Positions 2-17,701 of a stretch of DNA of 64,000 nucleotides are shown one piece after another; position 1 is the stretch's first letter; every line of letters starts with the position of its first letter. The notes beneath the pieces are model-generated. The model did not search any database. It had not been told where the DNA came from and saw nothing but the letters and a program-made list of their open reading frames with translations. A program made the position numbers and the translations under genes. Source of the DNA: an uncultured Verrucomicrobiota bacterium (lineage in GTDB: Bacteria; Verrucomicrobiota; Verrucomicrobiia; Opitutales; Seribacteraceae); the NCBI GenBank assembly GCA_902569115.1, contig CACFTI010000009.1, positions 1 to 64,000 of the forward strand. The letters run 5' to 3'.

Positions 2-1699
2 CTTACGATCAAAGTAAGCGACGGGTATTTATCTGATTATCTAAACCTTTATGTGCAAACACTGGATGTAGAAGAGAATAGGGCACCCAGTTTTCACACA
101 TATGGTATGATTGAAGTACTTGAAAATGAATCTTTAGTCCTTGAACTTAACGCTTCTGACTTGGATGCGGATTTTCTGACCTATTCCATTGCATACGGAG
201 ATGATGCATACAGTTTTGAAATAAACAATATTACCGGAATACTAGTTTCCAAGTATCCATTTGATTTCGAGTCTCCGGCCGATCTGAATCAGGATAATAT
301 TTATGAACTAACCGTGAGTGTCAGTGATGGAGAATTCCAGTCATTTCTTGACCTCGAAGTAAGAGTGCTTGATGATCAGGATGACCATGTTACGGAACCA
401 GGTGATGGGAATGATTCGAATGATTCCTTTACTGATGGTCATCCCGTTTTTCAATTAACCGAATCAGATCTGCAGGTTTTGACAGGTCAAGTATTGCTTC
501 CCGGCACTTATGCGATTGTTGAAATGAATCAAACCTTTGTGGATTTGGAGCCAGTTTACATTGAATTCAACGAGACATGGAAGACCACTCCGGAGAGTGA
601 TTATTTTAACTTGGTACCGCAGGTTTATGGTGATGTTGATTCCGTGTGGGAAAGGGTGTCCATGCTCTTGATTGAACCGGTTGGTTTCCTTGAAGAATTT
701 GACCATGACAACAACGAAACCTTACCACATGATGGTAATGAAACGGCTTTGGTTGGATTTGAAATCATCTTGTCCAATCACTGGGTTTTTGAAAACGCCG
801 ATTTAGGTTCATTGGTTGGTGAGGTTTATCCTATCTCCTTGCATGATCATAATCAGACTCACGACACACCCTTTGACTTATTTTCAAATTTGAATTTTGA
901 AATCCTGAGTGGTGATGAGTTTTTCCGTCTCGAAGGCAGGGAACTTGTAACCGATGGATTTATTGATTTCGAAGATTCATCCGAGCATGTCATTTTAATC
1001 GGAGCATTTGGTCCAGACGGTTTTATTTTGGAGCAAGAGTTTGTGATCCAAGTGGAAGATCGCTTTCAACCTATCGTTCGCACCATGCAACCCGGCACCT
1101 TGGATATGGATACGGCCTGGCTTGGTGGTTACTTATTGGATGATGGGGGAGATCCCATGTTTTTGGAAACAGGTGTGCTCGTTTCAATGCATCCAAATCC
1201 GGACTTTGATGATAATCGATCCATGGTTTTCTTCTCAGATACAAATATGTCCGGTGAATTTTTTGAAACTTTTGTCTATGGTTTGTTATCAGAGCAAAAA
1301 TATTACTACCGTGCATTTGCCATGAATGAAGAGGGTATAGGTTATGGTGCTATCTATGATTTTGAAACCGAGGCACTGCTCATATCCCCCGAATGGGCAG
1401 ATGCAATTCCAATACCGGATGCAGATGGATGGTGGAGTAGTACTTGGTTTGGTTCCTTTTTTCTTAGTGAAGATGAGGGTTGGATACTTCACGAAGGTTT
1501 GGGATGGTTGTTTATTCTGCCTCAGGATGAAGGTATTTGGATGTGGCATGAACAACTCGGTTGGTTATGGACAGAAAAATCTATTTACTCCTATTTCTAT
1601 TCACTGGATAAAGGTTGGATCTTTTACCACGGATCCAGTGAAAGAAGTTCTTTATTCTATGCATTCAGGGATGAATTGTGGTGGGCTATTACCAAATGA
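2..1699 (+). CDS. C-terminal part of a cadherin-repeat surface protein with a GW-type domain at its end (5' truncated by the window)
   Basis: The reading frame is open from base 2, so the gene starts upstream of the window; the GTG at 53 is internal. Seen: the end of one cadherin-like repeat (VSDG...), a complete one with VLENES and DLDAD calcium-type motifs, an Asp/Asn-rich linker, two less regular beta-rich stretches, and an Fn3-like segment near residues 360-450 (QKYYYRAFAMNEEG). The last ~100 residues (about 1390-1696) are rich in Trp and aromatic residues, with spaced motifs HEGLGWLF, HEQLGWLW and DKGWIFYHG. A very similar domain lies near the end of the giant protein at 6296-15733 and in an orphan fragment at 5925-6155. 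Inference: a secreted or surface-attached adhesin whose terminal domain may serve sorting or anchoring. The function of the GW domain is not known to me. Confidence 0.85.
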   Translation, partial: LTIKVSDGYLSDYLNLYVQTLDVEENRAPSFHTYGMIEVLENESLVLELNASDLDADFLTYSIAYGDDAYSFEINNITGILVSKYPFDFESPADLNQDNIYELTVSVSDGEFQSFLDLEVRVLDDQDDHVTEPGDGNDSNDSFTDGHPVFQLTESDLQVLTGQVLLPGTYAIVEMNQTFVDLEPVYIEFNETWKTTPESDYFNLVPQVYGDVDSVWERVSMLLIEPVGFLEEFDHDNNETLPHDGNETALVGFEIILSNHWVFENADLGSLVGEVYPISLHDHNQTHDTPFDLFSNLNFEILSGDEFFRLEGRELVTDGFIDFEDSSEHVILIGAFGPDGFILEQEFVIQVEDRFQPIVRTMQPGTLDMDTAWLGGYLLDDGGDPMFLETGVLVSMHPNPDFDDNRSMVFFSDTNMSGEFFETFVYGLLSEQKYYYRAFAMNEEGIGYGAIYDFETEALLISPEWADAIPIPDADGWWSSTWFGSFFLSEDEGWILHEGLGWLFILPQDEGIWMWHEQLGWLWTEKSIYSYFYSLDKGWIFYHGSSERSSLFYAFRDELWWAITK

Positions 1700-1808
1700 G
1701 AGTCATTGTAGAAAAATTTACCTCTTTATCATGTGCCAACCCGCTTAATGATTGTCTTGACCTCGACCCCTAGAGTTTTGCACGATATATCTATGTGACC
1801 ATATTATC

Positions 1809-4691
1809 ATGAAGAAGAATACCATATCATTGTTATCGATTTTCTTTCTATTTGCTTTTGCATTATCCGGTCAGCCTGCTCAAGATAGCAATGTCGGGGC
1901 AGTCATAGTTGCTGCCTTGGAGGGGAAAGTATCGGTTCTCAAAAATAATGACGATCAGCAAGGTGCCGAAGTCAAACCCGGAGATGTGATTCCACTCGGC
2001 AAATTGATCGTCACTGGTTCCGGGTCAAAACTAACCCTTCTTTTATCGAATGGTACGCTGGTAACCTTAGTCGAGAATACGAGAATGACGGTGGGTAAAT
2101 TTGAGCAAACCCCTTTCGAATCAGACGGTAAAAAGGTATCCGATCTACAGGGTGAACCGAGTAATTCCAAAGTTGATCTGGACTTGGACATGGGCTCAGT
2201 GATCCTAAAGACCAAAAAACTAAATAAACAATCAAGTTTCAATATTCAGTCTCCAGTCGGAACTGCAGGTATTCGTGGTACTGAATTTCAAATGGGTTTT
2301 GATCCGAGCTCCGGTGTTCAGCTCGATGTTACAGAATCCACAGTTGATTTTACTCCACCCGGTGGACAACCCGTGCCCGTTACTCAGGGGCAGGGTCTTG
2401 ATGTGTCTCCAAGTGGACAAGTAGCTCCAAGACCCGTCAACCCTACGGTTGCCCAAAATATTTCCACCACAAACCAAGCGGCCACCGAAGTATCCGCAGA
2501 TATTTCCATGGATTCTGTCTCTGAAGCCGTCACGGAATCAACTGAATTATCCAAGGAAGCTGAAGCGGAGAACCAGGAAGATTCCGAAACACAGGACGAA
2601 TCCAAAGAGGAATCTCAGGAAGAACCAGCTGAAGACTCACAGGAAGAAGCGATGGAAGAATCGGATGAAGCAGGCGATGAAGCTGCCAGTGAGCCCGAAG
2701 AGACTTCGGAAGAACCATCCAGTGAAACAGAAGAACCCTCTGCGGAGTCGGAAGAGCCCTCTACTGAAACAGAAGAACCAACCGCTGACTCAAAAGAGCC
2801 TGCAACTGATCCTGAAGACACTCCTTCTGAGCCACAAGATGATTCTTTGGTTGCGGAATCGACAGAGCCATCCACTGATGCCGGGGAGGCTACCGTGAGC
2901 GAGGAAACAATGGCTGCTCCGGTGGACCAACCTGCGGAAAAGGAGACAACCATTCAGGAAACTGCAACCGTGGATTTAGCGCCCGAAGATACCGCAGTAA
3001 GTGAACCAACTGCCTCTACTCCTCAGCCCGAAGTCAGTTTGCAGGAAACTCTTCCATCTGTGGAATTAACTCCAGAACCTATGGATACGCCGGATATTGC
3101 TGCACCTCCATCACTCGCAATAGAAGACTTTGGTTTACAGGCTCCCCAGGTGGAAGTGGAAATAAAAATCGAGGAGATTATCGAACGCAACCCGGATGCC
3201 AAACAAGTCCAGGAAACCGGAAAGATGGGAGCACCTGCCGCTGAACTCGCTAAACTTCCACTTAATGATTCTATGCTCGATCAATATCGTGATCTTCCTG
3301 AAGATACACAAAATGAACTTTTAAAAGTCGGTGCAAACCTGGTAGAGAAAATATTATCCGTTGAGGAGGTTGACCCTGTCATAGCGGTTGAATTTGTGAA
3401 TCTATCACCCAACGCACAGGAATTGGCGGTCAATCTTGACGAAAAGTCATTTGTTACTCTTCTTTCCTATGAAGATGATGTACGAAGAGGGTTTGCTGAG
3501 TTGGAAGTATCCGATGCCGAAAGACTTTTAAGCATGGAAGAATTCGAGCCTGAACTTGCGGCCAAGTTTGTTGACTTCAGCCCGGAAGCACAGGATCTTA
3601 CTCTGGGTCTTGAAGATATTGCTCTGGTTACGCTGCTTGAGCAGGATATTGATGAAGAACTTATTCTTTCGGCACTCACGCCCGAGAGTATCGAGCAATC
3701 CTCCTCCGAGAATATTCCCACGGAAAACAAGGCAGTCGCAACCAGTGAAGAAGTTCTAAGCCTTGGAGACAATATGAGAGAGTCCGGGAATGCAGACCTA
3801 TACGATGAAGTTTATGAAATGGCAGATGGAGAAATCACCGAAGAATGGGTGCAAGTGGCAGAGGTTGCTGAGGCCCTTTCCGGAGATGTGGAGCTTAATG
3901 AAGGCAGCCTCCCCGCGAGTAGTGCTGTTTCAGGTATGGATGCCCTGGGTAATCCATTCTTTCAGGAAATTTCAAGCCTTTACGATGTTCTGCTCGATGA
4001 TGGACTACTAGCCGGAAATGACCCCTCTGTGATCGGGGGAGATATCATCACCATGGGCACCGGTAGTTATGATCTTTCTGAATCCCTTGGCGATGCAAGC
4101 ACCCTGCTTTTGGGAGCGAGTGACTCCTTTAACATTTCCGGAGATTTACGATTCTTTTCATCCGAGGAATCAGATCCACAGGTGATCATAATGAGTGGGA
4201 ATGATTTCTCTCCTGCCGCCGGTTCCTCGATCACCAATGAACTGAGTGATCTTGTGATTGCCACCCGTGGCAATGTTCTTTTGAACGATGCTCAATTGGA
4301 GTCAGTCCGCGAAATCGCCATTCGTGCCCTCGCCGATGTGGAGCTTCAAAATGTGGATATTCGTTCCGATTCCATGGTTCGCATAGCCGCGGCCCAGGAC
4401 TTGAATGTGGATGGGTTCCAACTCAGTCAATCACTCCCCAGCCTGATCATGGAAGCCACCACCATCAGGCTAAGCAATATCGACTTCCCCGCTGCCACCC
4501 AGGTACAGCTTAATAGCCTGAAAGGACCAATCGATATGAAGTATCCAAATTTTGGGACTGCGATCCCACAGAGTCAGCAAATCGGACGGGTGAACTTTCT
4601 GGATAATGTAAAATCCGGAGGTAGCTTAATCATGGACCGGGCTGCCTTTGATCAATTCGGTGGAAATATCAATATTGGCAAGCTCCCCTGA
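1809..4691 (+). CDS. FecR-domain exported protein with acidic Ser/Glu/Pro linker and beta-helix-like C-terminus
   Basis: 960 aa, starting with a clear signal peptide (MKKNTISLLSIFFLFAFALS). Residues ~30-205 form a FecR-type domain: a LPGD-like segment (VKPGDVIPLGKLIVTGSGS), LLLSNGTLVTL, and the hallmark SPVGTAGIRGTEF. Residues ~230-400 are a low-complexity acidic linker of EEP/SETEEP repeats. Two 58-aa tandem repeats follow (LSVEEVDP.../LSMEEFEP...). The last ~260 residues have short hydrophobic beta strands with ATRGNVLLNDAQL-like periodicity, resembling filamentous-haemagglutinin or beta-helix folds. No ECF sigma factor or TonB receptor lies nearby, so classical iron-type FecR signalling is unlikely. 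It lies 40 bp before a beta-barrel gene and is probably co-transcribed with it. I infer a periplasmic or surface structural role. Confidence 0.85.
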   Translation: MKKNTISLLSIFFLFAFALSGQPAQDSNVGAVIVAALEGKVSVLKNNDDQQGAEVKPGDVIPLGKLIVTGSGSKLTLLLSNGTLVTLVENTRMTVGKFEQTPFESDGKKVSDLQGEPSNSKVDLDLDMGSVILKTKKLNKQSSFNIQSPVGTAGIRGTEFQMGFDPSSGVQLDVTESTVDFTPPGGQPVPVTQGQGLDVSPSGQVAPRPVNPTVAQNISTTNQAATEVSADISMDSVSEAVTESTELSKEAEAENQEDSETQDESKEESQEEPAEDSQEEAMEESDEAGDEAASEPEETSEEPSSETEEPSAESEEPSTETEEPTADSKEPATDPEDTPSEPQDDSLVAESTEPSTDAGEATVSEETMAAPVDQPAEKETTIQETATVDLAPEDTAVSEPTASTPQPEVSLQETLPSVELTPEPMDTPDIAAPPSLAIEDFGLQAPQVEVEIKIEEIIERNPDAKQVQETGKMGAPAAELAKLPLNDSMLDQYRDLPEDTQNELLKVGANLVEKILSVEEVDPVIAVEFVNLSPNAQELAVNLDEKSFVTLLSYEDDVRRGFAELEVSDAERLLSMEEFEPELAAKFVDFSPEAQDLTLGLEDIALVTLLEQDIDEELILSALTPESIEQSSSENIPTENKAVATSEEVLSLGDNMRESGNADLYDEVYEMADGEITEEWVQVAEVAEALSGDVELNEGSLPASSAVSGMDALGNPFFQEISSLYDVLLDDGLLAGNDPSVIGGDIITMGTGSYDLSESLGDASTLLLGASDSFNISGDLRFFSSEESDPQVIIMSGNDFSPAAGSSITNELSDLVIATRGNVLLNDAQLESVREIAIRALADVELQNVDIRSDSMVRIAAAQDLNVDGFQLSQSLPSLIMEATTIRLSNIDFPAATQVQLNSLKGPIDMKYPNFGTAIPQSQQIGRVNFLDNVKSGGSLIMDRAAFDQFGGNINIGKLP
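3354..3650 (+). repeat. Two-copy 174-bp coding repeat inside the FecR protein
   Basis: The codons for LSVEEVDPVIAVEFVNLSP (from 3354) and LSMEEFEPELAAKFVDFSP (from 3528) begin exactly 174 bp (58 codons) apart. The copies have diverged clearly at the DNA level, so this is an old duplication of a small, probably helical unit. The second copy is incomplete and fades out after VTLLEQD. Confidence 0.75.
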
Positions 4692-4731
4692 TTTCTGAAA
4701 CTCCGCATTTTGCGATAATTTTCAATCCCTT

Positions 4732-5766
4732 ATGATTCGCTCGTTATTCTTTCTGCACTTTCTCGTATCCGTCGTCCTTACCGGACATGGTCAAAGCACG
4801 GCACAGCCCAGGGCCAATCCATCGCTTCCCGGTTATTCCGGTTTTCACTCCAACCTGGGTATTCAGGAAATTATCGAAGTGGGAATTCCTCTTCAGGAAT
4901 CTGACTCGCTTCCCAAAACTGAAGTGAAGAAAGGATCAACCGCTCTTTCATCTTCCCAAACCGTTTCGCCACCATCCCAGGAATCCACTTCCCTCAAACT
5001 TTCTTCTCAGGCGGGAATACGGGCTTATTCGACTTCCAATGTGCTCAGGCAGGATAGCTCCCTTGCCCAGAGTTCCGGAGTTTTTGAAAGCAGTTTGGGT
5101 GTGGGCCTGAGCCAGGATGCCTATAAAGTGACGGATTACATGACCATGCTTCCCCGCCTGGACCTGATGATGCAATTGGCATGGTACGACAAAAGCTCTG
5201 AGCTCCTCAATTATCGATTCGGTCTGGTGAAGGGTGGCATTGCTTTTGGTTTTCCGGATAATTGGAGCGTTGGCACATCCATCGATTACAACACTCTCAA
5301 CAACTTGGAGACCGGAGATAAATCCTTTGATTCCATCTCCCCCTCGGTTTCCCTGCAAAAGATTTTTCCCACCTCGGAAACTTCCTTCTTCATGTTCGAC
5401 ACCATGGTGCGCTGGTCAAATATGGATACCACGGTATCCTTTCCTGCGGCGGGTATCTTTCCTGATAGTACGGATAACCATCAGGTCTCTCTATCGGTCA
5501 CTTATATCAAAATACTTGGGGCTGAACAGGAATGGACAATCATGCCCCGCGTATCGATTAACCGCACTAATTACACCAAGGATCCAAACACGGGACGCCT
5601 CGATTATTTATTCAACGGCGGGCTCAGTGCGATTTACAACCTGAATGACTGGTTCAGCGTGCAGGGCTTTGGCACTTACAATAAAATGAACTCAGACGAT
5701 GATACAGTTCCTGATTTTAAGGCTTTCGATACTGGTATGTCGATGAACGCCAACTTTCGCTTTTGA
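4732..5766 (+). CDS. Outer-membrane beta-barrel protein downstream of FecR protein
   Basis: 344 aa with a signal peptide (MIRSLFFLHFLVSVVLTGHGQS), then a Ser/Pro-rich ~80-residue segment and alternating amphipathic beta strands to the end (for example YRFGLVKGGIAFGF, WSVGTSIDY, WFSVQGFGTYNKM). The final residues NANFRF fit a C-terminal beta-signal with terminal Phe, as used for BAM-dependent insertion. It follows the FecR gene by 40 bp, so an operon is likely. I cannot assign a transported substrate. By position it could be a porin, an anchor for the neighbouring large surface proteins, or part of their export apparatus. The barrel assignment rests on strand pattern and C-terminus only. Confidence 0.75.
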   Translation: MIRSLFFLHFLVSVVLTGHGQSTAQPRANPSLPGYSGFHSNLGIQEIIEVGIPLQESDSLPKTEVKKGSTALSSSQTVSPPSQESTSLKLSSQAGIRAYSTSNVLRQDSSLAQSSGVFESSLGVGLSQDAYKVTDYMTMLPRLDLMMQLAWYDKSSELLNYRFGLVKGGIAFGFPDNWSVGTSIDYNTLNNLETGDKSFDSISPSVSLQKIFPTSETSFFMFDTMVRWSNMDTTVSFPAAGIFPDSTDNHQVSLSVTYIKILGAEQEWTIMPRVSINRTNYTKDPNTGRLDYLFNGGLSAIYNLNDWFSVQGFGTYNKMNSDDDTVPDFKAFDTGMSMNANFRF

Positions 5767-6295
5767 TCTGCTTTACCCTGCCAGATTTTTTTGGGTAGGT
5801 TTTATTAAATACAGTGATATTTTCATCTGAATCACTAGCCATTAAGTAAGCAGTGGTAAATGATCTGATTGTATAATTTTCTAGTTTTAAATCATTCGCA
5901 AAAGACATTGACTTAAAAGCCTGAATTTTTTGGATAATAAAATATCTGGGATGGGTTTACCTCGTTACTAAGAACAAAGCTGGAGGAGTTTGGCTTTGGC
6001 AAGAGACTCTCGGCTGGGTTTGGACAAATTCGAATCTTTATCCCTTTTTGTATTCCGGCTCATCCAATCGTTGGATTTTCTTTCATTGTCAATCCAGGGG
6101 TCAATTGATTCTATATGACTATGAGGCTTCGAATTGGGTTACTGTCGAGATTTGAGGAGACTTGAATTTTATTTATCCTGTTGATTTGATTTACATTTCA
6201 CGGTTCTGCTTGCTTAGACTACAAGATGTAAACTGAATCCTTGCAATGGATCAAATGATGGTGTGGAGTAACCATTGTCCCTTCTTGCTCCATCT
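5767..6295. other. 529-bp intergenic stretch containing a gene remnant
   Basis: No intact gene was found between the barrel gene and the giant protein. The part from 5767 to 5924 is AT-rich and carries stops in all frames; I see no convincing hairpin terminator in it. The middle (5925-6155) holds the open, start-less GW-domain fragment listed separately. The last 140 bp presumably carries the promoter and leader of the giant gene, but no good -35/-10 pair stood out. Confidence 0.6.
5925..6155 (+). pseudogene. Orphan GW-domain gene fragment
   Basis: The frame opening after a TGA at 5922-5924 and closing with TGA at 6153-6155 encodes about 76 residues with no ATG, GTG or TTG at its beginning. 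It contains YLGWVYLV, VWLWQETLGWVWTNSNLY, FLYSGSSNRWIFFH and LILYDYEASNWV. These align by eye with the C-terminal domain of the giant protein at 15118-15402 (NLGWVYIE, WLYREGLGWGWTNHEFF) and with the end of the protein at 1390-1696 (HEQLGWLWTEKSIYSYFYS). The level of conservation and lack of a start suggest the 3' end of a deleted surface-protein gene. Alternatively it is a cassette that recombines with its neighbours. Confidence 0.75.
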
Positions 6296-9200
6296 ATGAA
6301 AAATTTCCCTGAAATAAAGTTTTTACAGAGGGTTTCCTCTTGTTGTCTTTGTTTCTCAAAACTTAAGATTATAAAATTATACCATTTCCTTTTTCTTTGT
6401 TTATTTTTCTCCGGAATCAGGGGTGAGCATGCGTTTGCAAATGAGGTGGAGTCTCTCCTTAACTCTGAACGTTTAAGCCGAGTTTTATCAATTGACCTTC
6501 CAGAAGTTGGCGAAATTTCTGCTTCCCGTATCTTTTCCAAAGATCTGGGTGAAGGGGATTTTTCATGGAATGGACGAGTCTTGGGAGCCGGGAATGGCTA
6601 TCTGACTTTTTCATATGTGAAGGGAAGGATAAGTGGAAGTTTAACCAGGATAGGCGAGCCAAGTTATCGATTTACTGGTTCTACAGCTGGTTTGAATTTT
6701 GAGAAAGTGAAGGTGGAAGGCCAATGCGGGGGATGCATTGTGGATAATAATTTGCCTCCAGACCCACGATACAATGCGGTGCCTGCCAAAAGCTGGCGCA
6801 ATGGGGAAGCGCATCTGATTGATCTTTTGATAGTCTACCCGGCGGCGGTGAGATCAGAAGCCGGTAGCACGGCAGATGTGGAGGCGGCGATTGCGAGTGC
6901 CGTGGCAGACTCCAATCTTTGCTATCGTAAAAGTCTGGTTCCTATCCAATTGCGGGTAGTGCATATGGCCGAGGTGAGTTATACTCCAACGGGTACGCTC
7001 AATATCGATTTGGACCGGTTGAAAGCAAAAAGTGATGGGTATATGGATGATGCACATACCCTGCGTGATCAATATGGAGCTGACCTGGTCTGCTTGCTCA
7101 CCACGGACAGTGACTATGGAGGGCTGGCGAGTACAATGACCCGACCGAGCCTTAGTTTTGAAAGCAGTGGATTTAATGTAAATGTGTGGGACCAGCTGGG
7201 TGCGCCTAATTACACATTGGCTCATGAAATTGGTCACAATATGGGGTGTCTGCACAACCGCGAAGATGCGACTTGGACAAGTGAATATGATTATGGGGAA
7301 TTCTGTTTCGGTAAAAGGTGGTTGGTCGGTGCCGAGGGGTATCGAACCGTCATGTCGTACAATAATGCGAGCCAATACAATAACAGGATCCCACACTTCT
7401 CCAATCCGGGTGTTAGTTATGAGGGTGTGGCGACTGGAAATGTGGGGACAGAAAATAATGCAAAAGTGCTGGCCTTGTCCGCTCCTTACACTGCCAATTT
7501 TCGCAGTGCTGTCGTTCAGGGAATTGTAACCTCCATTTTTGACCTGGGCCTGGCTGAAGAATCCACAGGCTCGTTTAAGGTGAGGTTGGCCACAGAACCT
7601 GCCAGTTCGGTGACTGTAATTGCCTCGATTTCCGGTGATGCAAATTTAATTCTTGGAGGTTCTACCAGTCTTACTTTTGATTCTTCAAATTGGAATATTT
7701 TTCAAACTGTGTCGGTGACTGCCTTGGCTGATAATGATTCGGCAAACGGAACGGCAACGGTCACCTTTTCCTCCACTGAAATTAACTCAGCCCAAGTGCA
7801 GGTTACTGAGAATGATACAGGTGCGAATTCAACCGCCGGTTACATGTTTGGTGGTGTTGTGAGTAATGAGTTAGGTATGGGGATTCCTGATGTGACCTTA
7901 ACTTTTTCAGACGGGAGTGGAGCTTTAACAACCGACGAAAATGGAAGTTTCTACAGAGAGTTAAGTAACGGATGGAGTGGAACGATAACGCCAAGTAAGG
8001 ATGGCTATTCTTTCTCTCCGTCTAACATAGCAATTTCTTCCCATTCTTCTCATTCAGTAAGTCATGTGTTCGTTGGTTCCAGACCCTCTGTGCTGTATGT
8101 GGATTGTGATGCAACAGGTACTGGGGATGGTTCCACCTGGGCAAATGCATACACTGATTTATCGGAAGCTCTTTCTTCTGAGCGAGTATTCACGGAAGTA
8201 TGGGTGGCGGAGGGTACTTATTTACCAGGGGAGATTAGATCTTCCTTCTTTTTGTTGCCTCCAAATATTGCCGTCTACGGGGGATTTGCCGGGACAGAGA
8301 CAAGTCGGGATCAACGGGATACTGTCGCCAACTTAACCATCCTGTCCGGTGATATCGGCACCTTGAATGACAATACCGACAATTGTTTCCATGTGGTTGT
8401 GCCTTCCAGTGGTTCGTCTTTGGATGGATTTAGGATAATGGGTGGATATGCCAATAAAAACTACTCGGATGATGACCGGGGGAAGGGAGCCGGGTTGTGG
8501 GCAGATGAAGTAAATTTCTCGGTAAATGACTGTAATTTCACTAATAACAGTACGTACCAAGGTGGGTCCGGCGTATACCTTTATGACTCCAACGCCACCT
8601 TTGAAAATTGCGTATTTACACAAAACTCGACTCTATCGACGGGAAGCGGAGGAGCAGCTTATTTTCAGGATTCCAACATTTCCATCACCAATTCAATTTT
8701 CAAATCTAATAGTGCTTATTATTGGGGAGGGGCCATTAGAAGCGAAAATTCTACACTTAGTATTTCTGGATCTCAATTTTTAGAGAACCAAAGCCTAAGT
8801 TCCAATGGGGCTGGAGCGGTCATGATCAATGACGGAAATTTCTCGATTAATTTTACAAGTTTTACATCTAATCAGGCAACCCATGATGGTGGAGCACTTC
8901 TTATTGTGAATGCAGGTGGGTCGATTATCGATAGTAATTTTACCAGTAATTTGAACACACAATGGAATGGGGGTGGTGCATTGAAGCTAGAATCTTCTTC
9001 GCCTACCATTCAAAATTGTAATTTTTCATATAACCGTACGCAGGCAAACCATTATGGTGGTGCGATCAATTTAGAATCATCTTCTCCAACTATAGAGAAT
9101 TGTACTTTCACCAGAAACAGGTGTGAATCGAATTCAGCGGGTGCTCTTTATATTGATTCCTCTTCGGACCCAGTCCTGAGAAATAATAATTTTTATTTTA

Positions 9201-12200
9201 ATTATGCATCATCCTGGGGTGGGGCAATTTTTGCAGTAAATCCAAGTTTTTCGGTTGAAGGAGGCGTTTTTCACGGAAACTGGGCAAATCTTGGAGGCGG
9301 TGTGGCCACTGACGGATCGGTTCAGAGCGTTTTTAATAGTATTCGAATGTTAGGAAATGAGGCGAATTCAAGCTCCACTTCAAATGGTGGCTTTGCTTTT
9401 TTTAATACGGGGTCAACTGGTTCCACTTTCATTAATTGTGAAATAATTGGAAACAAAGCCAATAACCGGCACGGTGTTTTCGCTCCCAAAGGAAATACCA
9501 AGTTTCTGAACTGTTCGATTGTTCGAAACGAAGCTGGTGCACTTGGGGGTGTTGCTTTGCTATTTACCGGCGATTCAATCACTCTTGAGAATTCGATTAT
9601 GTGGGAGAATAGCTCTCCACAGGGGAATGATATTTATGTCAACCAAGGAACGGCATCCGCTAATTACTCTTTGTTTGATTCATCCCAATCTATCGGTTCA
9701 ATTTCCGGATCAAACAATGTCAGTGGTGATCCTCTCTTTGTTGATGCGGATGGGGCAGATAACTCCTATGGAACATTGGATGATGATTTAACTATACAAT
9801 TGAGCAGCCCTGCCATTGATGCGGGTTCCTCTTCCTTTGGTAGCTACCCAAGCTCTGATATTAATGGTTTGGTAAGGTCAGGGAATCCGGACATTGGAGC
9901 AAATGAATATTGGTTGTCACCCATTTCATTTTCTTTTAACGGCGTGAATTATGAAATTATTAAAGTGGGTGCCACATGGACGGGGGCTGCCGAGATTGCA
10001 GTTTCAAGAAATGGTAAACTGGTCGAGATTGAGTCGGTCGAGGAACAGAATGCTATTTTCTCAGCTATTGGCAGTGCTGGAATAAATGCTTCGGATACAG
10101 TTGCTGCCGATGGAGGGGGAGGGGCATACTTGTGGATTGGGGGTAATGATATTGCAGTAGAAGGAAGCTGGGTATGGGATGGTGATAATGATTTGAGCAC
10201 CGAGTCTTTTTGGAGTGGTACATATGAGGGGACTGCCATTGCTAATTCATATGTAAACTGGGGAACCACTTTTTCAGTGCAAAATGAGCCGGATGATTAT
10301 CAGAATCAACAGGATGGTCTTGCCATTTCATTGGATGGGTGGCCATTGGGCAGTGCAGGTCAGTGGAATGATGTTGATCAAGCCAATTTGCTGTATTCGA
10401 TCGTAGAGTATAATGTCGCTCCAACCTTTACTTCGGGAAGCACATTTTCCGTTCAGGAGAATCAAACCATAGTTGGACAAATAGTAGCGGTTGACCCGAA
10501 TGGAGAAGCGGTGATTTACGGCATTCAAGGTGGTGAAGATCAGAACTTGTTTTCCATCCATTCAGTAACCGGAGAATTGAGTTTTCTTCAAGCACCCGAT
10601 TATGAAAATGCGGTAGATAATGGAGGCGATAATATTTATAACCTGACAATCCAGGTATCCGACGGATCACTCACTGCAACGCAGAATCTAACCATCACGG
10701 TGACCGATGTGAATGAGACTCCTGCGAACAGTGCCCCGGTATTCAGTTCGGTAACCAGTTTTAGTGCGGCGGAAAACCAGACCGGGGTAGGCACGGTAAC
10801 GGCAACGGATGCCAACGGGGATGCGTTGACTTTCTCAATAAGTGGAGGATTGGATCAGTTGTTATTTACCATTAATGCAACGACTGGCGTATTGGTTTTC
10901 AATAGTGCTCCTGATTACGAGAATGCGGGAGATAATGGAGGCGATAATATTTACAACCTGACGATCCAGGTATCCGACGGATCACTCACTGCAACCCAGA
11001 ATCTAACCATCACGGTAACCGATGTGAATGAGACTCCTGCGAATAGTGCCCCGAGCGGATTGAGCACATCCGGAAGCTTGGTGATGCAGGAGAATGAAGC
11101 AGTGGGAACGATAGTGGGAACTTTTACTGCCCAGGATCCGGATGGAGATTCATTATATTACTACTTGGCCAGCGGAATGGGAGATGGAAATAATAGTATG
11201 TTTACCATGGATACGAATGGTACATTGCGAACTGCAATGTCGTTTGATTATGAATCGTATCAAAGCCTTAATATAAGTGTCGTGGTTTTGGATGATAGTA
11301 ATGCTTCCGAGGTGGGATCTTTTTCAGTAGCGGTTACGAATGCAAATGAGACACCGACTGCACTGGGTCATTCGAATGCTCTTTCGGTATTGGAAAATCA
11401 AGCGAGCGGAACGATAGTGGGAACTTTTACTGCTCAGGATCCGGATGGGGATTCATTAACTTACCACTTGGTCAGTGGAACGGGTGATGGAAATAACAGC
11501 ATGTTTACCATGGATGCGAATGGCACATTACGGACAGCGGTGTCATTTGATTATGAATCATATCAAAGCCTAAATATCCGGGTGAAGGCGATGGATGGAA
11601 ACAGTTCATCGGTGGAGGGAACTTTCACGGTAATAGTTGCCAATGAGAACGAGGCACCTAATGCGTTAGATCATTTGAGTGGTCTTACGGTGTTGGAAAA
11701 TCAGGCGAGTGGAACGGTTGTGGGAACTTTTACTGCCCAGGATCCGGATGGGGATGATATTAGTTACCAACTAGTCAGCGGTGCGGGAGATGGAAATAAC
11801 AGCATGTTTACCATGGATACGAATGGTACATTGCGAACGGCGGTGTCATTTGATTATGAATCATATCAAAGCCTAAATATTCGGGTAAAGGCGATGGATG
11901 GAAACAATTCCTCGGTGGAGGGAACTTACACGGTAGTAGTTACCAATGAGAACGAGACACCGAATGGGTTAGACCATTTAAGTGGTCTCTCGGTATTGGA
12001 AAATCAGGCGAGCGGAACCATTGTGGGAACTCTTCAGGCACAGGACCCGGATGGGGATGATCTTAGTTACCAACTAGTCAGCGGTGCGGGTGATGGAAAC
12101 AACAGTATGTTTACCATGGATACAAATGGCACATTACGGACGGCGGTGTCATTTGATTATGAATCATATCAAAGTCTAAATATTCGGGTAAGGGCAATGG

Positions 12201-15200
12201 ATGGAAACAGTTCCTTGGTGGAAGGAGCTTTCACGGTAGTTATTTTGAATGATTTAGGTTCAGTATTTTCGGTTTCAGGCGGAAGCTTTAGCTATCCTTT
12301 TTATCAGTTTGTTGATGGGAATGGATTGGCTATTGATTTTAGCTCCCGTCACTTAAGTAGAGGAGAAATTTATGAGTTCAAGGCTGATGGAGTCTTAACT
12401 AGCCATCCATTTATGATCGGAGAAAGTAATGGGGATTTAAGTTCATCTTTGGTTTCTGGTGGTCCATTAACTGGAAGTGTGGGAAGTATATTTTTAACGA
12501 TACCATCTGATTTCTCGGGCAGTCTCTACTATTTTTGTACAGCACACACTTCAATGGTGGCACCAATAGGGTTTAATACGGGTAATCAAGCTCCAACGAA
12601 TCTGACCCATTTGAGTGCTCTTGCAGTTTTAGAAAATCAGGCGAGCGGAGCCATTGTGGGAACTTTTCAGGCACAGGACCCGGATGGAGATAACTTAAGT
12701 TACTACTTGGTCAGTGGAACGGGAGATGGAAACAACAGTTTATTTACCATGGATGCGAATGGCACATTGCGAACGGCGATGTCATTTGATTATGAATCAT
12801 ATCAAAGCCTAAATATAAGGGTAAAGGCGATGGATGGAAACAGTTCCTCGGTGGAGGGAGCTTTTACGGTTTCTATTTTGGATGTTAATGAATCACTACC
12901 TAATTCACCCCCGGAGAATCTTTCTGCTGTTGGGAATTTAGAGGTTTTAGAAAACCAGACAATTGGAACATTAGTTGGTGTTTTTTCTGCACAGGATCCA
13001 GATGGGGACTCCCTGACTTACCAATTGATCAGTGGATCTGGAGGTATAAATAATGAGATGTTTACCTTGGATCAAAATGGTACATTACGAACAAACCAAA
13101 TCTTTGATTATGAATCGAATGTAGTATTATCAATACGGGTGCAAGTTTCTGATAACAAATCAGGAACAATTTCTGAAAACTTTATTATAAAAATATTGAA
13201 TGAAGATGATCTAACTACAAATGAACCTCCTCGTGATCTAAATTCAACTGAAGAGCTTATTGTAGAAGAAAATCGACCTGTGGGTACCATTGTAGGACAG
13301 TTTCAGGCACTTGACCCAGAGGGTACAACCCTTACTTATTTTCTAACGGATGATGCAGGAATTTATGATAATGATTTCTTTGTTTTGGAAACTAATGGTA
13401 CCTTGAAGACAGCTGTTGAATTTGATTTTGAAAATCAAAATACATTAGCGATTCGGGTCGCAGTTCAGGACTTGTCCAATTCTTTCATGACAGAGGTTTT
13501 CAATGTGGAGATACTCGATGTTAATGAAACAACGCCTAATGAAGCCCCTGTGGATTTAAGGGCTTTGGATAACCTTGAAGTCGAAGAGAATCTACCGATA
13601 GGTTCAATCGTTGGTGAGTTTAATGCCTCGGATCCAGAGGGTGGGGAAGTGTTCTTTTTCCTGACCTCGGGAGAAGGTGATGACCATAATACTTTGTTTT
13701 ATATTTTGGGTAATCAGTTAAGAACGAATTCTGTTTTTGATTATGCTCAATTTTCTTCCCTTACAATCCGGGTAGGAGCAATGGATGAGTCTAATGTAAT
13801 TACGGATTCTAATTTTACGGTAACAATAATTGAATCTACCGTAGAACCAGTGAATCTGCCTCCTACCAATTTATTGGCGATTATTGAATTGGGATTTAGT
13901 AACTACTCTGAGGAAGGTGCGGTGATTGGCGAATTTAATGCTACGGACCCAGAGGGAGGGTCGCTTTTCTTTTCGTTAATGGAAGAGAATGAAAATAATG
14001 ATAATGAATATTTTTCAATTACTGAAAACGGAATTTTAAAGCTCGTAAATAAACTATCTTTTGATTCAAACCGATCTTTTGATGTTGATGTCAGGGTGGT
14101 CGATGACGCGGATCAAATTACATCAAAAACCTTCTTGATCCCTTACACTTTCATTGAAGACAATTCCTCCGAATTACCGTTCTATTTTACATCCACTATC
14201 TTGGAGATAGAGGAAAATCGACCTACAGGAAGCATGATTGGTTCTTTTTACGCCGTGAGTGGCATCGGTGTGGATGAAACGGTTGAGTACAGTTTTACAA
14301 CAGAAGACTCTCGGTTTTTGTTAGATAAAAACGGCAGTTTGAAATCAGGAGTCATATTTGATTTTGAAGAAATGAACCAGAGCACCATTGCAATCGAAGT
14401 TGTCGGGGTGACTGCTGAAAAGCAAATGACGATCAGGCAATTTCAGGTCGAGATTATTGATCAAAATGAAACTTTACCTGGGCTTGAACTATTCGATTTT
14501 AATCTAAGTTCGCTATCCATTTCTGAAGATGCAATTATTGGCAGTCTGGTGGGTACTTTCATTCCGGACTTTGATGATACTTCTTTGCAAGTAGAGTACT
14601 TCCTCAATGATCCTAATTCCTTATTTGAAATAGTGGATGAAAGATTAGTAACCCGGGTTGAACTGGATTACGATAAACTATCTTACTACAATTTATCCGT
14701 TGATGTTTTGGCGATGGTCAATTCTCAAGAAGTAAAATTTCGCTCTTTTACAATTAATTTGGAGAATGTGAATTACGCACCGGAAGAAATTTCGATCAAT
14801 GATGAATTGCACATTATTGGCGGTGAACCAGAAACTCACCAACTTGGTCCTTTCACAGTCATTGATAAAGATGAATCCGATGAGCATACCTTCCAATTGG
14901 TTGATGGAGCGGAAACAAATGATAATCATCTTTTTTCGCTTGATGAAAATGGAACCCTACACTTCCAAAATGAAGGTTCTTTCGGTACGAAAAGAGATTT
15001 TACTATCAACTTGAGAGCGTCCGATAATGCGGGTGCTTACATTGATCAAGTATTTACAATTAAATATGAAGAAACTGCCGGGGATGCTGCAGTGCTTCTT
15101 ACAGATGGAGTAGAGGTACGAGGTGGATGGAAACGAGCAGGATGGTTTGGCTACTTTTATGGGGAATTTTATCCTTGGGTTCATCATGAAAATCTTGGTT

Positions 15201-15733
15201 GGGTCTACATCGAGCAAAATGACGACAATACTTGGCTTTATCGAGAAGGTCTTGGTTGGGGATGGACCAATCATGAATTTTTCCCATTCATCTATCTCGT
15301 GGATCGAAATTACTGGGTATATTTGGATCGTAATTATTTTCCTGCAACCCTTTTTGATTACGGCTATCAGGAATGGTTTCAACCCGATCGTTTATATCGC
15401 GTTTCTACTACCGTGAGTCGTTCGGTTGGAGGGGAAGTAACCGGAAGTGGAACTTACAGAAGATGGGACAAGGTGAAGATTTTTGCCAATCCCAAAGTTG
15501 GGTTTAAATTTTCTGGTTGGACTGGTGATATCCAGGGCGTTAATCATGAATTGGAGATTGAGGTTCACCGTGATATTCAAGCAGAAGCGGTCTTTTTGCC
15601 TGATGTCAGTGGTGGAATATCGACTGATTCATCGCTTAGATCTTTTATTGAATATGTTGACGCCTTAGATGATCTTACGGATGAAGAAAAGCAACAAGCA
15701 GTAACTGATCTCTTTCTTTATGGAGAGTTTTAA
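6296..15733 (+). CDS. Giant secreted multidomain protein: metalloprotease, beta-helix, C-type lectin, cadherin repeats, cupredoxin, GW domain
   Basis: 3145 aa from the ATG at 6296, which is followed by a signal sequence ending near HAFA; a TTG at 6275 would add seven residues without improving it. Domains by eye: M12-like metalloprotease ~174-406 with zinc motif HEIGHNMGCLH (310-320) and Met-turn VMSYNN; beta-sandwich ~407-512; carboxypeptidase-regulatory-like ~516-592; right-handed beta-helix/Pmp-like ~600-1208 with repeated NCxF-xxN turns; C-type-lectin-like ~1210-1374 (YLWIGGND...GQWNDV); six cadherin-like repeats ~1375-1985; cupredoxin-like ~1986-2097; eight further cadherin-like repeats ~2102-2932; GW domain ~2942-3036; InlB-B-repeat-like ~3037-3101 (GYKFSGWTG type); short tail ending LYGEF. 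Probably a secreted or surface adhesin/protease acting on polymers or other cells; the substrate is unknown. Many DxNxD/DPDGD loops imply calcium binding. Confidence 0.85.
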   Translation: MKNFPEIKFLQRVSSCCLCFSKLKIIKLYHFLFLCLFFSGIRGEHAFANEVESLLNSERLSRVLSIDLPEVGEISASRIFSKDLGEGDFSWNGRVLGAGNGYLTFSYVKGRISGSLTRIGEPSYRFTGSTAGLNFEKVKVEGQCGGCIVDNNLPPDPRYNAVPAKSWRNGEAHLIDLLIVYPAAVRSEAGSTADVEAAIASAVADSNLCYRKSLVPIQLRVVHMAEVSYTPTGTLNIDLDRLKAKSDGYMDDAHTLRDQYGADLVCLLTTDSDYGGLASTMTRPSLSFESSGFNVNVWDQLGAPNYTLAHEIGHNMGCLHNREDATWTSEYDYGEFCFGKRWLVGAEGYRTVMSYNNASQYNNRIPHFSNPGVSYEGVATGNVGTENNAKVLALSAPYTANFRSAVVQGIVTSIFDLGLAEESTGSFKVRLATEPASSVTVIASISGDANLILGGSTSLTFDSSNWNIFQTVSVTALADNDSANGTATVTFSSTEINSAQVQVTENDTGANSTAGYMFGGVVSNELGMGIPDVTLTFSDGSGALTTDENGSFYRELSNGWSGTITPSKDGYSFSPSNIAISSHSSHSVSHVFVGSRPSVLYVDCDATGTGDGSTWANAYTDLSEALSSERVFTEVWVAEGTYLPGEIRSSFFLLPPNIAVYGGFAGTETSRDQRDTVANLTILSGDIGTLNDNTDNCFHVVVPSSGSSLDGFRIMGGYANKNYSDDDRGKGAGLWADEVNFSVNDCNFTNNSTYQGGSGVYLYDSNATFENCVFTQNSTLSTGSGGAAYFQDSNISITNSIFKSNSAYYWGGAIRSENSTLSISGSQFLENQSLSSNGAGAVMINDGNFSINFTSFTSNQATHDGGALLIVNAGGSIIDSNFTSNLNTQWNGGGALKLESSSPTIQNCNFSYNRTQANHYGGAINLESSSPTIENCTFTRNRCESNSAGALYIDSSSDPVLRNNNFYFNYASSWGGAIFAVNPSFSVEGGVFHGNWANLGGGVATDGSVQSVFNSIRMLGNEANSSSTSNGGFAFFNTGSTGSTFINCEIIGNKANNRHGVFAPKGNTKFLNCSIVRNEAGALGGVALLFTGDSITLENSIMWENSSPQGNDIYVNQGTASANYSLFDSSQSIGSISGSNNVSGDPLFVDADGADNSYGTLDDDLTIQLSSPAIDAGSSSFGSYPSSDINGLVRSGNPDIGANEYWLSPISFSFNGVNYEIIKVGATWTGAAEIAVSRNGKLVEIESVEEQNAIFSAIGSAGINASDTVAADGGGGAYLWIGGNDIAVEGSWVWDGDNDLSTESFWSGTYEGTAIANSYVNWGTTFSVQNEPDDYQNQQDGLAISLDGWPLGSAGQWNDVDQANLLYSIVEYNVAPTFTSGSTFSVQENQTIVGQIVAVDPNGEAVIYGIQGGEDQNLFSIHSVTGELSFLQAPDYENAVDNGGDNIYNLTIQVSDGSLTATQNLTITVTDVNETPANSAPVFSSVTSFSAAENQTGVGTVTATDANGDALTFSISGGLDQLLFTINATTGVLVFNSAPDYENAGDNGGDNIYNLTIQVSDGSLTATQNLTITVTDVNETPANSAPSGLSTSGSLVMQENEAVGTIVGTFTAQDPDGDSLYYYLASGMGDGNNSMFTMDTNGTLRTAMSFDYESYQSLNISVVVLDDSNASEVGSFSVAVTNANETPTALGHSNALSVLENQASGTIVGTFTAQDPDGDSLTYHLVSGTGDGNNSMFTMDANGTLRTAVSFDYESYQSLNIRVKAMDGNSSSVEGTFTVIVANENEAPNALDHLSGLTVLENQASGTVVGTFTAQDPDGDDISYQLVSGAGDGNNSMFTMDTNGTLRTAVSFDYESYQSLNIRVKAMDGNNSSVEGTYTVVVTNENETPNGLDHLSGLSVLENQASGTIVGTLQAQDPDGDDLSYQLVSGAGDGNNSMFTMDTNGTLRTAVSFDYESYQSLNIRVRAMDGNSSLVEGAFTVVILNDLGSVFSVSGGSFSYPFYQFVDGNGLAIDFSSRHLSRGEIYEFKADGVLTSHPFMIGESNGDLSSSLVSGGPLTGSVGSIFLTIPSDFSGSLYYFCTAHTSMVAPIGFNTGNQAPTNLTHLSALAVLENQASGAIVGTFQAQDPDGDNLSYYLVSGTGDGNNSLFTMDANGTLRTAMSFDYESYQSLNIRVKAMDGNSSSVEGAFTVSILDVNESLPNSPPENLSAVGNLEVLENQTIGTLVGVFSAQDPDGDSLTYQLISGSGGINNEMFTLDQNGTLRTNQIFDYESNVVLSIRVQVSDNKSGTISENFIIKILNEDDLTTNEPPRDLNSTEELIVEENRPVGTIVGQFQALDPEGTTLTYFLTDDAGIYDNDFFVLETNGTLKTAVEFDFENQNTLAIRVAVQDLSNSFMTEVFNVEILDVNETTPNEAPVDLRALDNLEVEENLPIGSIVGEFNASDPEGGEVFFFLTSGEGDDHNTLFYILGNQLRTNSVFDYAQFSSLTIRVGAMDESNVITDSNFTVTIIESTVEPVNLPPTNLLAIIELGFSNYSEEGAVIGEFNATDPEGGSLFFSLMEENENNDNEYFSITENGILKLVNKLSFDSNRSFDVDVRVVDDADQITSKTFLIPYTFIEDNSSELPFYFTSTILEIEENRPTGSMIGSFYAVSGIGVDETVEYSFTTEDSRFLLDKNGSLKSGVIFDFEEMNQSTIAIEVVGVTAEKQMTIRQFQVEIIDQNETLPGLELFDFNLSSLSISEDAIIGSLVGTFIPDFDDTSLQVEYFLNDPNSLFEIVDERLVTRVELDYDKLSYYNLSVDVLAMVNSQEVKFRSFTINLENVNYAPEEISINDELHIIGGEPETHQLGPFTVIDKDESDEHTFQLVDGAETNDNHLFSLDENGTLHFQNEGSFGTKRDFTINLRASDNAGAYIDQVFTIKYEETAGDAAVLLTDGVEVRGGWKRAGWFGYFYGEFYPWVHHENLGWVYIEQNDDNTWLYREGLGWGWTNHEFFPFIYLVDRNYWVYLDRNYFPATLFDYGYQEWFQPDRLYRVSTTVSRSVGGEVTGSGTYRRWDKVKIFANPKVGFKFSGWTGDIQGVNHELEIEVHRDIQAEAVFLPDVSGGISTDSSLRSFIEYVDALDDLTDEEKQQAVTDLFLYGEF
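10616..11046 (+). repeat. Near-identical 315-bp cadherin-coding duplication
   Basis: The stretch encoding DNGGDNIYNLTIQVSDGSLT recurs 315 bp (105 codons) later, from 10616 and from 10931. About 125 bp of the two copies differ at only a handful of bases, mainly silent ones. This implies recent duplication or gene conversion within the cadherin array. Confidence 0.85.
11057..12895 (+). repeat. Tandem 303-bp cadherin-coding repeats, interrupted by a cupredoxin-like insert
   Basis: Units begin at 11057, 11360, 11663 and 11966 at exact 303-bp (101-codon) spacing, with another copy at 12599 after an insert of about 340 bp. Each encodes a cadherin-like domain with VLENQASGTIVGTF, DPDGD and FDYESYQSLNIRV motifs. 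The copies are close to identical over long stretches of DNA, so array length is likely to vary between strains and short-read assembly here could collapse or expand the repeats. Confidence 0.9.
15118..15402 (+). other. GW (Trp/aromatic-rich) domain coding segment in the giant protein
   Basis: About 95 codons just upstream of the InlB-like segment encode a module with GGWKRAGWFGYFYGEFYPW, HENLGWVYIE, YREGLGWGWTNHEFFPF and RNYWVYLDR. The same order of motifs (first GW strand, H/Y-E-x-LGW, then LGW-x-WT, aromatic pair, W-I/V-F/Y-Y) occurs at 1390-1696 and 5925-6155. The repeated 'LGW' strands about 20 residues apart suggest small beta-hairpin repeats, loosely like choline-binding or cell-wall-binding repeats, but that comparison is inference from pattern only. 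Confidence 0.75.
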
Positions 15734-15770
15734 ATAAAAGAAACATGCCTCCCACAGGAATGCTTACAGA

Positions 15771-16703
15771 ATGAATCCGACTTTTAATTTTTTTCTAACT
15801 TTATCCTTTTGTATCTTTTATTGCACTACTGGTGCACAGGTAGAAAAAAACTATATGGTTAGAAGTTCATCGGGTGAATTAAAAGATCTAAGGCAAATTA
15901 CTTTTGAAATAGAGGATAGTCTTGCTAAGTATCGCGAAAAGATGCGAACAACTCGAAATGAAATTATTCGGTTGAACGCATTAGATCTAAATGTATCAAA
16001 GACGGTTCCTCAGAAGTCTAAAGTTGAACGAATTTCAATTCCAGAACAGAAAATAGAAAACGAATCTCTCTTAAAGATTGGAGTAAATGAAAGATCTTTT
16101 GAACCGGTAGGAAACAAAAGAACCGAAGAAAAAATTTCTTTGACTAGAGGCAATGAAAAGGTCGGATTTTATTTACTGCCGTTTATAGGAATGAATTTTG
16201 CTGAAGATTTTGCTTGGACTCCGTCCGCTTCGGCAAGTACTAAAATGATGCAGCAGTCTACCGGCCTTTCTTATGGGTTTATATCGGGTAAGTCCTGGGA
16301 AGATTTTTTTGTAGAGTTTGATTTGGGCTACCTCCAGAATGAGATCAATGGCTTTAAGGGAGAAGTTGTAACTCCTTTCAGTATGTTCAAAGATGGGCAT
16401 ACTAGATTATTGAAAATGCACATCAATACTGGGCTAAGCATTGATCTTGGGGAAATGGCACAATTACATCTTGGAGGAGGATTGGGACTCTCTCACCAAA
16501 AAGTTTTAATGGATTGGATTGGCAGTACTGTGAAGGAAGAAGACTCTGCTTTAGGTCATCAGTTTTTTTCTGAAATTCATTTTAACCCCACGAAAGATTT
16601 TAAATTGGGACTTAAGTATGAGTGGAACTCTGTTCCTGAAATAAACACCATTTCTTCGAGACAAATTCATCAGATCAGTCTTTTAGCTGGTTATGTTTTT
16701 TAA
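15771..16703 (+). CDS. Exported protein with coiled-coil N-terminus and small outer-membrane beta-barrel
   Basis: 310 aa. Signal peptide at the start (FFLTLSFCIFYCTTGAQ), then a charged, probably helical segment (~25-120; SLAKYREKMRTTRNEIIRLNAL). From ~125 there are alternating amphipathic strands (KVGFYLLPFIGMNF, LHLGGGLGLSH, FKLGLKYEW) and a terminal strand HQISLLAGYVF ending in Phe, which fits a BAM beta-signal and an OmpA-size barrel of about eight strands. It starts 37 bp after the giant protein, so co-transcription is likely. Inferred role: outer-membrane partner of the giant protein or of the FecR protein that follows. It is not similar by eye to the other barrel at 4732-5766 in sequence, only in type. 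Confidence 0.75.
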   Translation: MNPTFNFFLTLSFCIFYCTTGAQVEKNYMVRSSSGELKDLRQITFEIEDSLAKYREKMRTTRNEIIRLNALDLNVSKTVPQKSKVERISIPEQKIENESLLKIGVNERSFEPVGNKRTEEKISLTRGNEKVGFYLLPFIGMNFAEDFAWTPSASASTKMMQQSTGLSYGFISGKSWEDFFVEFDLGYLQNEINGFKGEVVTPFSMFKDGHTRLLKMHINTGLSIDLGEMAQLHLGGGLGLSHQKVLMDWIGSTVKEEDSALGHQFFSEIHFNPTKDFKLGLKYEWNSVPEINTISSRQIHQISLLAGYVF

Positions 16704-16810
16704 ATAATGTGAGCTATTCAAAATAATTGGTGAAAAAATTGTTTTGATACATTATTGATCCATGAATTTGTGTGTTTGACCTATAAAAGCGTTTTCTTTT
16801 TTATAAAAAC

Positions 16811-17701
16811 ATGCGTTATCTCTGTATAATTGTTATTCCATTGTTGATTAATTCTTTTGTCGGCTTTGGCCAAACAAAGCAGTTGGTGATTTCAAGTATT
16901 GGTGATGGAGCAACTTATTTGAAGTCTAGTCCCGGCTCTGAACGAGTGGAAGATGCCTCCTTTCTTGCTCCAAATTCAATTATTTCTGTTCGTCCGCGAA
17001 GTGGATTGGAGACTATTGCAACTGGGTTTCGTTTTCGTTACGGGGCCTCGACTAGGTTTGCTTGCGATCCCCAGAAAATAAACCTTTATGAAGGCGGTTT
17101 AATGATTCACTCTCGGAAAATCGAAAGTTTGCTGTGTTTGGAGTCACCTGAGGCATCTGCAATGCTAAGTGGGGTTGGTTGTTTGCTTACAGAAGCAGAA
17201 ACAAATGGAGGGATGAAAATGATAGGTATTTTAGGCAGTATTCGAATTACTTGTACACAAGGCGGTCAGGAAATGTCACTATTGCCCGGAGAATTAACTT
17301 TTATTAAGCCTGGAGGCAGAGGCTTTGGGCCAAAAGTACAAATTAACCTTAGTAAACTTGTATCATCTTCTTTTTTGCTTTCAGGGTTCCAAAATTCATC
17401 GACTTTTGCTTCTTCTTTGAAAAATACTTCCAATGCTCAAAAGATTTCTACAGGTAGAATCTTTGCTGCAGAAGTCGGAGATGCCCTAGATCCAGATTCT
17501 TTTCAGATTGTTAAGAATTCAAATGCTACAAGTCAGGCAGGGGGGGACTTGAAAAAAGCATCCATTTTTCCGAATCATTCGGGCGATCCTTTGACGGAAC
17601 TTTTGGGGCGAACTCCTTACAGAAGCTCTCCCTCTTCTAAGAAGGAAAATTATGAACCCAACAGTCGACCATTTCCTTCAAGGCTACTACGAACAAAATA
17701 A
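16811..17701 (+). CDS. FecR-like exported protein, short form
   Basis: 296 aa with a signal peptide (MRYLCIIVIPLLINSFVGFGQ). The middle region resembles the FecR fold: threshold-like SIISVRPRSGLETIATGFRF, an YEGGLMIHSRK strand matching the usual 'L..G.v.v..rk' element, and an SGVGCLLTEAE stretch in the place of the SPVGTAGIRGTEF motif, followed by an GSIRITCTQGGQEMSLLPG strand pair. The C-terminal 130 residues are Ser/Lys-rich and probably disordered. It lacks the acidic linker and beta-helix seen in the 960-aa FecR protein at 1809. It lies 107 bp after a barrel gene and 12 bp before the antiporter gene, so it could be transcribed with the latter. FecR assignment is moderate. Confidence 0.65.
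   Translation: MRYLCIIVIPLLINSFVGFGQTKQLVISSIGDGATYLKSSPGSERVEDASFLAPNSIISVRPRSGLETIATGFRFRYGASTRFACDPQKINLYEGGLMIHSRKIESLLCLESPEASAMLSGVGCLLTEAETNGGMKMIGILGSIRITCTQGGQEMSLLPGELTFIKPGGRGFGPKVQINLSKLVSSSFLLSGFQNSSTFASSLKNTSNAQKISTGRIFAAEVGDALDPDSFQIVKNSNATSQAGGDLKKASIFPNHSGDPLTELLGRTPYRSSPSSKKENYEPNSRPFPSRLLRTK

Follow-up and report, generated by a model that had tools for sequence, protein, structure and literature searches.

Why does an uncultured Verrucomicrobiota bacterium encode very large secreted proteins directly beside a FecR-domain protein and outer-membrane-type barrels, and do these genes belong to one system? We analysed a 64,000-nt stretch of its DNA (the window) from the very beginning of a 66.7-kb contig; the genome assembly comprises 2.38 Mb and is 70% complete.

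Gene content of the locus

The ORF check of the window located six long ORFs, all on the forward strand, and confirmed the six genes and both gene orders that the first-pass annotation had described for positions 2–5766 and 6296–17701. GW protein A (2–1699; 565 aa), whose 5´ end is cut by the contig start, contains a cadherin repeat and a C-terminal GW domain (about 1427–1681). It is followed by the FecR protein (1809–4691; 960 aa), which has a signal peptide and a PF04773 domain, and by barrel A (4732–5766), which comprises a signal peptide, a disordered stretch of ~70 aa and a predicted 12-strand outer-membrane β-barrel. The giant GW protein B (6275–15733; 3152 aa, with the ATG at 6296 a likelier start than the TTG at 6275) consists of a signal peptide, an M12-type metallopeptidase, a β-helix, a lectin-like region, at least 11 cadherin repeats and a GW domain (15125–15376), which is followed by a Flg_new_2 domain and a 40-aa C-terminal tail. 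Pfam detected cadherin in both GW proteins of the window, and the M12-type peptidase, the β-helix and Flg_new_2 in the giant. Barrel B (15771–16703) carries a signal peptide and a C-terminal outer-membrane-barrel-like domain of a family distinct from barrel A. The last gene, fecS (16811–17701), encodes a small secreted FecR-like protein with a conserved C-terminal RPFPSRLLR, and antiporter–nuo genes lie downstream.

The 3´ tail of a decayed third GW gene (5940–6155, forward strand; 71 codons, then TGA), absent from the first-pass annotation, shares ~40% identity with the GW domains of FecR-linked GW proteins. Beyond fecS, positions 17714–20944 encode an NhaP-type antiporter of 1076 aa with an apparent C-terminal cyclic-nucleotide-binding domain, which is conserved beside fecS and the nuo genes. 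Positions 35625–41942, in otherwise ordinary surroundings, encode a predicted coiled-coil protein of 2105 aa whose N-terminus has a signal or membrane segment.

The explanation that we favour, with moderate confidence in it as a whole, is that the region is a surface-display island in which a GW protein–FecR–barrel A cassette and a giant GW protein–barrel B cassette stand ahead of a resident fecS.

Two cassettes of different origin

The first-pass annotation read the locus as one FecR–barrel–GW module that occurs twice in tandem, with the gene order differing between the copies. Neither the FecR-like protein nor the barrel of the supposed second copy is detectably related to its counterpart in the first: the best BLASTP match between FecR and fecS has an E-value of 1.3 with a profile–profile probability of 8%, and barrel A and barrel B compare with an E-value of 2.8 and a probability of 0.1%. 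The orthologues of the second FecR-like protein belong to fecS, and those of the second barrel to GW–barrel B pairs. Although relatives such as TMED56 and IN921 carry two FecR genes of this kind on separate contigs, a tandem duplication can hardly be right for this locus, and we reject the two-copy module: the window itself contains one FecR–barrel A cassette.

Gene order in relatives points to another history. fecS is located either behind a FecR–barrel A pair or alone ahead of the antiporter–nuo genes. In TMED56, the place behind barrel A is likewise taken by an orthologue of the giant, with 68% identity over 1481 aa, and another contig of this genome has the order giant–barrel B–GW–FecR–barrel A. 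In the window, barrel A and fecS are separated by the giant–barrel B pair and the 71-codon GW remnant. Gain and loss of cassettes ahead of the resident fecS would be the simplest history, and a second GW–FecR–barrel A cassette has probably been lost from the window.

The GW domain

The GW domain ends no more than 16 aa from the C-terminus in 46 of 54 proteins of the family, with a similar placement in other families, and it is found behind cadherin, Ig, trypsin, TSP3 and M12 peptidase passengers. It is rich in conserved Trp, and its predicted model is all-β with a mean pLDDT of 91. Neither Pfam and NCBIfam nor the PDB sequences gave a match. The model had no significant Foldseek match and VIA-align Z-scores under 5, which is not proof of a new fold. 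As judged from the sequences, the GW domain is thus shown to be a common C-terminal, predicted all-β domain on unrelated secreted passengers. Its position behind such passengers is where a sorting or anchoring domain would sit, which supports a role of this kind.

GW genes are linked to two barrel families

FecR loci were fetched from relatives with the FecR alignment and their neighbours were counted by hand; the genomes are incomplete MAGs or SAGs, and the loci are phylogenetically non-independent. Of 35 full FecR genes with a readable upstream neighbour, 28 are directly preceded by a GW gene, 2 by a gene for a PglB-type oligosaccharyltransferase (PglB) and 5 by another gene. Where a GW gene precedes FecR and the sequence extends far enough (about 24 cases), barrel A is next after FecR in 16. 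For barrel B, a hand count placed it directly behind a GW gene in 17 of the 20 loci that could be read, and FecR is not needed for this pairing. The recurrence that the first-pass annotation asked about, of GW, FecR and barrel genes as a set, thus holds in dozens of genomes and extends to a second GW-linked barrel family.

GW genes make up ~1% of genes (about 25 per 2.4-Mb genome). Each genome of the family has about 3–36 GW domains, most of which have no FecR or barrel neighbour. Two genomes (G037 and G056) have 11–36 GW domains and no FecR or barrel A matches, which indicates that FecR and barrel A cannot be a universal GW export machine. Conversely, FecR–barrel–fecS sets also occur away from any GW gene, beside PglB, superoxide-dismutase or aroC genes. 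The partnership therefore stands as co-occurrence, and the strict version, in which FecR and barrel genes are always near GW genes, is refuted. Taken together, the recurrence and the orphan GW genes indicate that the linkage is real but not exclusive, and that not every GW protein requires it.

In two of these GW-free settings the neighbouring genes were identified by eye. Seven loci (L164, L166–L169 and L178–L179) carry a paralogous FecR C-terminal-region protein together with a barrel A-like, a fecS-like and a small gene, in a fixed place between aroC/dnaX-like and 2-oxoacid-oxidoreductase-like genes and with neither GW nor PglB. In L213, L214, L215 and L217, FecR–barrel–fecS lies immediately behind tRNA-deaminase-like and superoxide-dismutase-like genes.

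The GW-free sets leave room for the triad to have a role of its own. FecR, barrel A and fecS could be a self-contained envelope assembly that has a barrel of its own, such as a signalling complex or a β-solenoid surface fibre, with the GW gene as no more than a frequent passenger of the operon. The triad, with FecR represented by its C-terminal region, does occur without GW in three settings (PglB, MORN/aroC and superoxide dismutase), and fecS is also found alone. A mere passenger is nevertheless hard to reconcile with a GW gene upstream of 28 of 35 FecR genes when GW genes are ~1% of genes, or with an independent barrel B family that is also paired with GW genes and has no FecR. We consider this alternative unlikely.

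The GW domain might also need no partner. Listeria GW modules and choline-binding repeats are anchors that work alone outside the cell, and the GW domain, which is Trp-rich, all-β and C-terminal, could be a stand-alone carbohydrate- or envelope-binding anchor once outside, in which case the barrels would be unrelated porins. Most GW genes lack an adjacent barrel, and GW domains are present in families without FecR or barrel A, as this alternative would have it. However, a Pfam scan of 12 GW proteins, mainly partial ones, gave no match to the GW profile of the Listeria module; choline-binding matches were likewise absent; and the GW-domain model, with a pLDDT of 91, gave no clear structural match from which the SH3-like fold of that module could be read. 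Two unrelated barrel families that are tightly linked to GW genes are also unexpected for porins with no part in the process. A stand-alone anchor is accordingly doubtful.

Barrels and FecR proteins

The barrel A model has 12 strands behind the ~70-residue disordered stretch, with a mean pLDDT of 75 and values of mostly ~90 in the barrel blocks. Its best structural matches are CymA, autotransporter domains (Z-scores of about 14–17), OmpG and FapF (14.4). The model and these matches support the outer-membrane location that the first-pass annotation had assigned, as a prediction, and single out no function. Like autotransporter and FapF-type barrels, barrel A is predicted to place 12 strands behind a periplasmic N-terminal stretch. 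Type V autotransporters, in contrast, combine passenger and barrel in one chain, whereas separate ORFs encode them here. The likeness is also non-specific, with many unrelated barrels (CymA, OmpG, FadL) scoring alike, and is accompanied by no sequence relation. Pfam searches to an E-value of 0.1 gave both barrels weak matches to OMP_b-brl and DUF4627 only.

The FecR protein matches PF04773 with 45.6 bits (cut-off 24). It consists of a signal peptide, a FecR domain (residues ~67–179), an acidic linker and a conserved C-terminal region ending FDQFGGNINIGKLP, and its named relatives come from marine Opitutales/Opitutia MAGs and single cells. In NCBIfam, residues 32–101 matched Leptospira FecR-domain adhesins and lipoproteins and the LapA retention module weakly, below the cut-offs. 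fecS matched no Pfam family down to an E-value of 0.1. The FecR domain PF04773 is shared with the anti-sigma system of iron signalling, from which the window FecR differs by its signal peptide and secreted architecture. No ECF sigma factor or TonB receptor is present in the first 35 kb of the window, which contain only the six genes and the antiporter–nuo genes, upstream being the contig end. In these respects it departs from the usual iron-signalling FecR, as the first-pass annotation had stated. A literature search found no work on FecR domain proteins of Verrucomicrobiota.

A PglB-type oligosaccharyltransferase in the same family

On contig C25 of the same genome, an operon combines a paralogous FecR–barrel–fecS set with genes for two membrane proteins and a PglB-type oligosaccharyltransferase, a layout that is conserved across the family. 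The enzyme matches PF21436 with 79.7 bits (cut-off 23) and PF02516 with 72 bits (cut-off 24.5). Its closest solved relative is C. lari PglB, with an E-value of about 5e-50 against the structures. The motifs WWDYG, YYDTDM (DxD) and GLRFT are conserved, the first two in alignment with C. lari PglB. The counterpart of C. lari R331, the residue that binds the −2 acid, falls outside the aligned stretch. The NCBIfam PglB equivalog is not reached (225.9 bits versus a cut-off of 1300); by its sequence, the enzyme is a distant relative rather than a curated PglB equivalog. It is present in 25 of 31 genomes of the family and in none of 343 other genomes of the order; the 6 genomes that lack it plausibly do so through incomplete assembly.

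The two membrane proteins of the operon (L060: 10627–15596; L100: 1897–5875, contig C25) have 757 and 566 aa. The former has several predicted membrane segments, mostly C-terminal, and the latter has one N-terminal membrane helix containing Asp, followed by a coiled coil. A likeness to an ExbB/MotA-like and MotB-like motor pair, seen by eye, found no support in Pfam, PDB or profile comparisons and is a lead only. Sequence searches for solved relatives gave none convincing for the 757-aa protein, barrel A, FecR, fecS or the GW domain.

PglB-type enzymes have been listed from epsilon- and deltaproteobacteria and Aquificae, and the Campylobacter enzyme targets N-x-S/T with D/E at −2 (PMC4894442). 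The enzyme described here shares with the Campylobacter type the WWDYG and DxD motifs and predicted targets with an acidic residue at −2. It differs in its marine Opitutales host, in an operon that contains two undescribed membrane proteins and FecR–barrel–fecS, and in the nature of its predicted targets, giant surface proteins that have as many as ~40 sites. Our literature search turned up no PglB-type N-glycosylation system described from Verrucomicrobiota.

GW proteins carry the acceptor-site signature

The extended sequon D/E-x-N-x-S/T occurs 10 times in the 565 aa of GW protein A and 40 times in the 3152 aa of the giant. These 50 sites in 3717 aa compare with 9 in all other listed window proteins together and with zero in the window FecR. 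In sets that include partial proteins, 74 GW proteins of the family have 9.1 sites per 1000 aa, whereas 29 GW proteins of PglB-lacking families have 0.56; the latter were drawn from one genome in each of four families, with only two proteins from G038. The density is 2.5 for other signal-bearing proteins of the family, a class assigned, like the membrane class, by a crude hydrophobicity rule, and 0.24 for FecR. D/E is found at −2 in 47–50% of N-x-S/T sites of the family's GW proteins, compared with a background of 13–14%, and only the −2 position is enriched. The GW proteins of G037, G053 and G056 have D/E there in 2–14% and show no enrichment. The probability of S/T at +2 given D/E at −2 is 0.59 in the family's GW proteins versus 0.11 outside the family (Fisher 3.5e-19).

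Sites of this kind might simply follow from what the repeats are made of, for example cadherin or calcium-binding loops, with no bearing on glycosylation; some do lie inside repeated cadherin motifs, e.g. FTMDANGT. Yet 404 of 483 contexts are unique, 371 are not N-G, and −2 alone is enriched. The control motifs are also unenriched, with 52 reversed motifs and 19 with Q for N against 482 sequons, and similarly acidic GW proteins of PglB-lacking families show no such signature. These observations largely refute such a repeat-based origin, which we regard as very improbable.

The sites also appear to be retained. Between the giant and an orthologue at 45% identity, 78% of sequon Asn are kept compared with 40% of other Asn (p 0.007), and a second orthologue shows the same direction (p 0.11). 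N-glycosylation of the family's GW proteins is well supported by these sequence data. The first-pass annotation had taken the barrel for an outer-membrane protein, FecR for a periplasmic one and the giant for their client; that interpretation is partly supported, and the link to N-glycosylation was unforeseen in it.

As a separate observation, the family's FecR proteins seem to avoid the extended sequon, with a probability of S/T at +2 of 0.05 given D/E at −2 and 0.17 otherwise, as if kept unglycosylated.

A model for glycoprotein surface display

The linkage of GW genes to barrels, together with hundreds of sequons, points to an unrecognised glycoprotein surface-display system. The favoured explanation, to which the moderate confidence given above applies as a whole, is that a partner barrel at the outer membrane holds glycosylated GW proteins or exports them; sequence data support its glycosylation part well, and its secretion part is an inference. 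GW proteins would be exported by Sec, N-glycosylated in the periplasm by the family's PglB and then taken across the outer membrane, where binding of the GW domain to the neighbouring barrel would hold them at the surface. In barrel A cassettes only, FecR may serve as a periplasmic partner that joins barrel and cargo, by analogy with the type IX partners below. No outer-membrane translocon for a 3000-aa cargo was found in this analysis. SprA_N (PF14349) matched none of 38 genomes, and the control genomes likewise gave no match.

The closest parallel is with type B cargo of the type IX system, in which SprB is held by SprF, and PG1035 by PorP with PorE (PMC9143113). Both involve Sec-exported proteins of giant size or several domains that share a conserved domain at the C-terminus; in both, an adjoining gene encodes a dedicated outer-membrane barrel, which is the proposed surface anchor and in some cases is joined by a periplasmic partner. 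The principle of a C-terminal domain common to unrelated passengers is represented here by the GW domain, which is not the T9SS domain. Neither window barrel matches Pfam PorP/SprF, and the 12 strands predicted for barrel A contrast with 14 in PorP, whose family is FadL-type. We do not claim membership of the type IX system; the likeness to SprB–SprF is an analogy with no detectable homology.

A wider reading is that Verrucomicrobiota possess an undescribed outer-membrane pathway for both export and display, in which GW is the C-terminal sorting signal, FecR and the two unrelated barrel families are handling partners, and glycosylation by a PglB from an operon of the same type belongs to the same process. 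We offer this reading tentatively, as a possibility that would go further than the favoured explanation.

A display system of this kind would give a role to the uncharacterised FecR-domain proteins of the phylum, and the PglB operon points to new PglB enzymes with possible use in glycoengineering. One marine family has apparently gained a PglB system and packed its largest surface proteins with acceptor sites, whereas sister families have the same C-terminal GW domain and no such filling with acceptor sites. This contrast amounts to a natural experiment, in which glycosylation, display and the partner barrels are directly testable.
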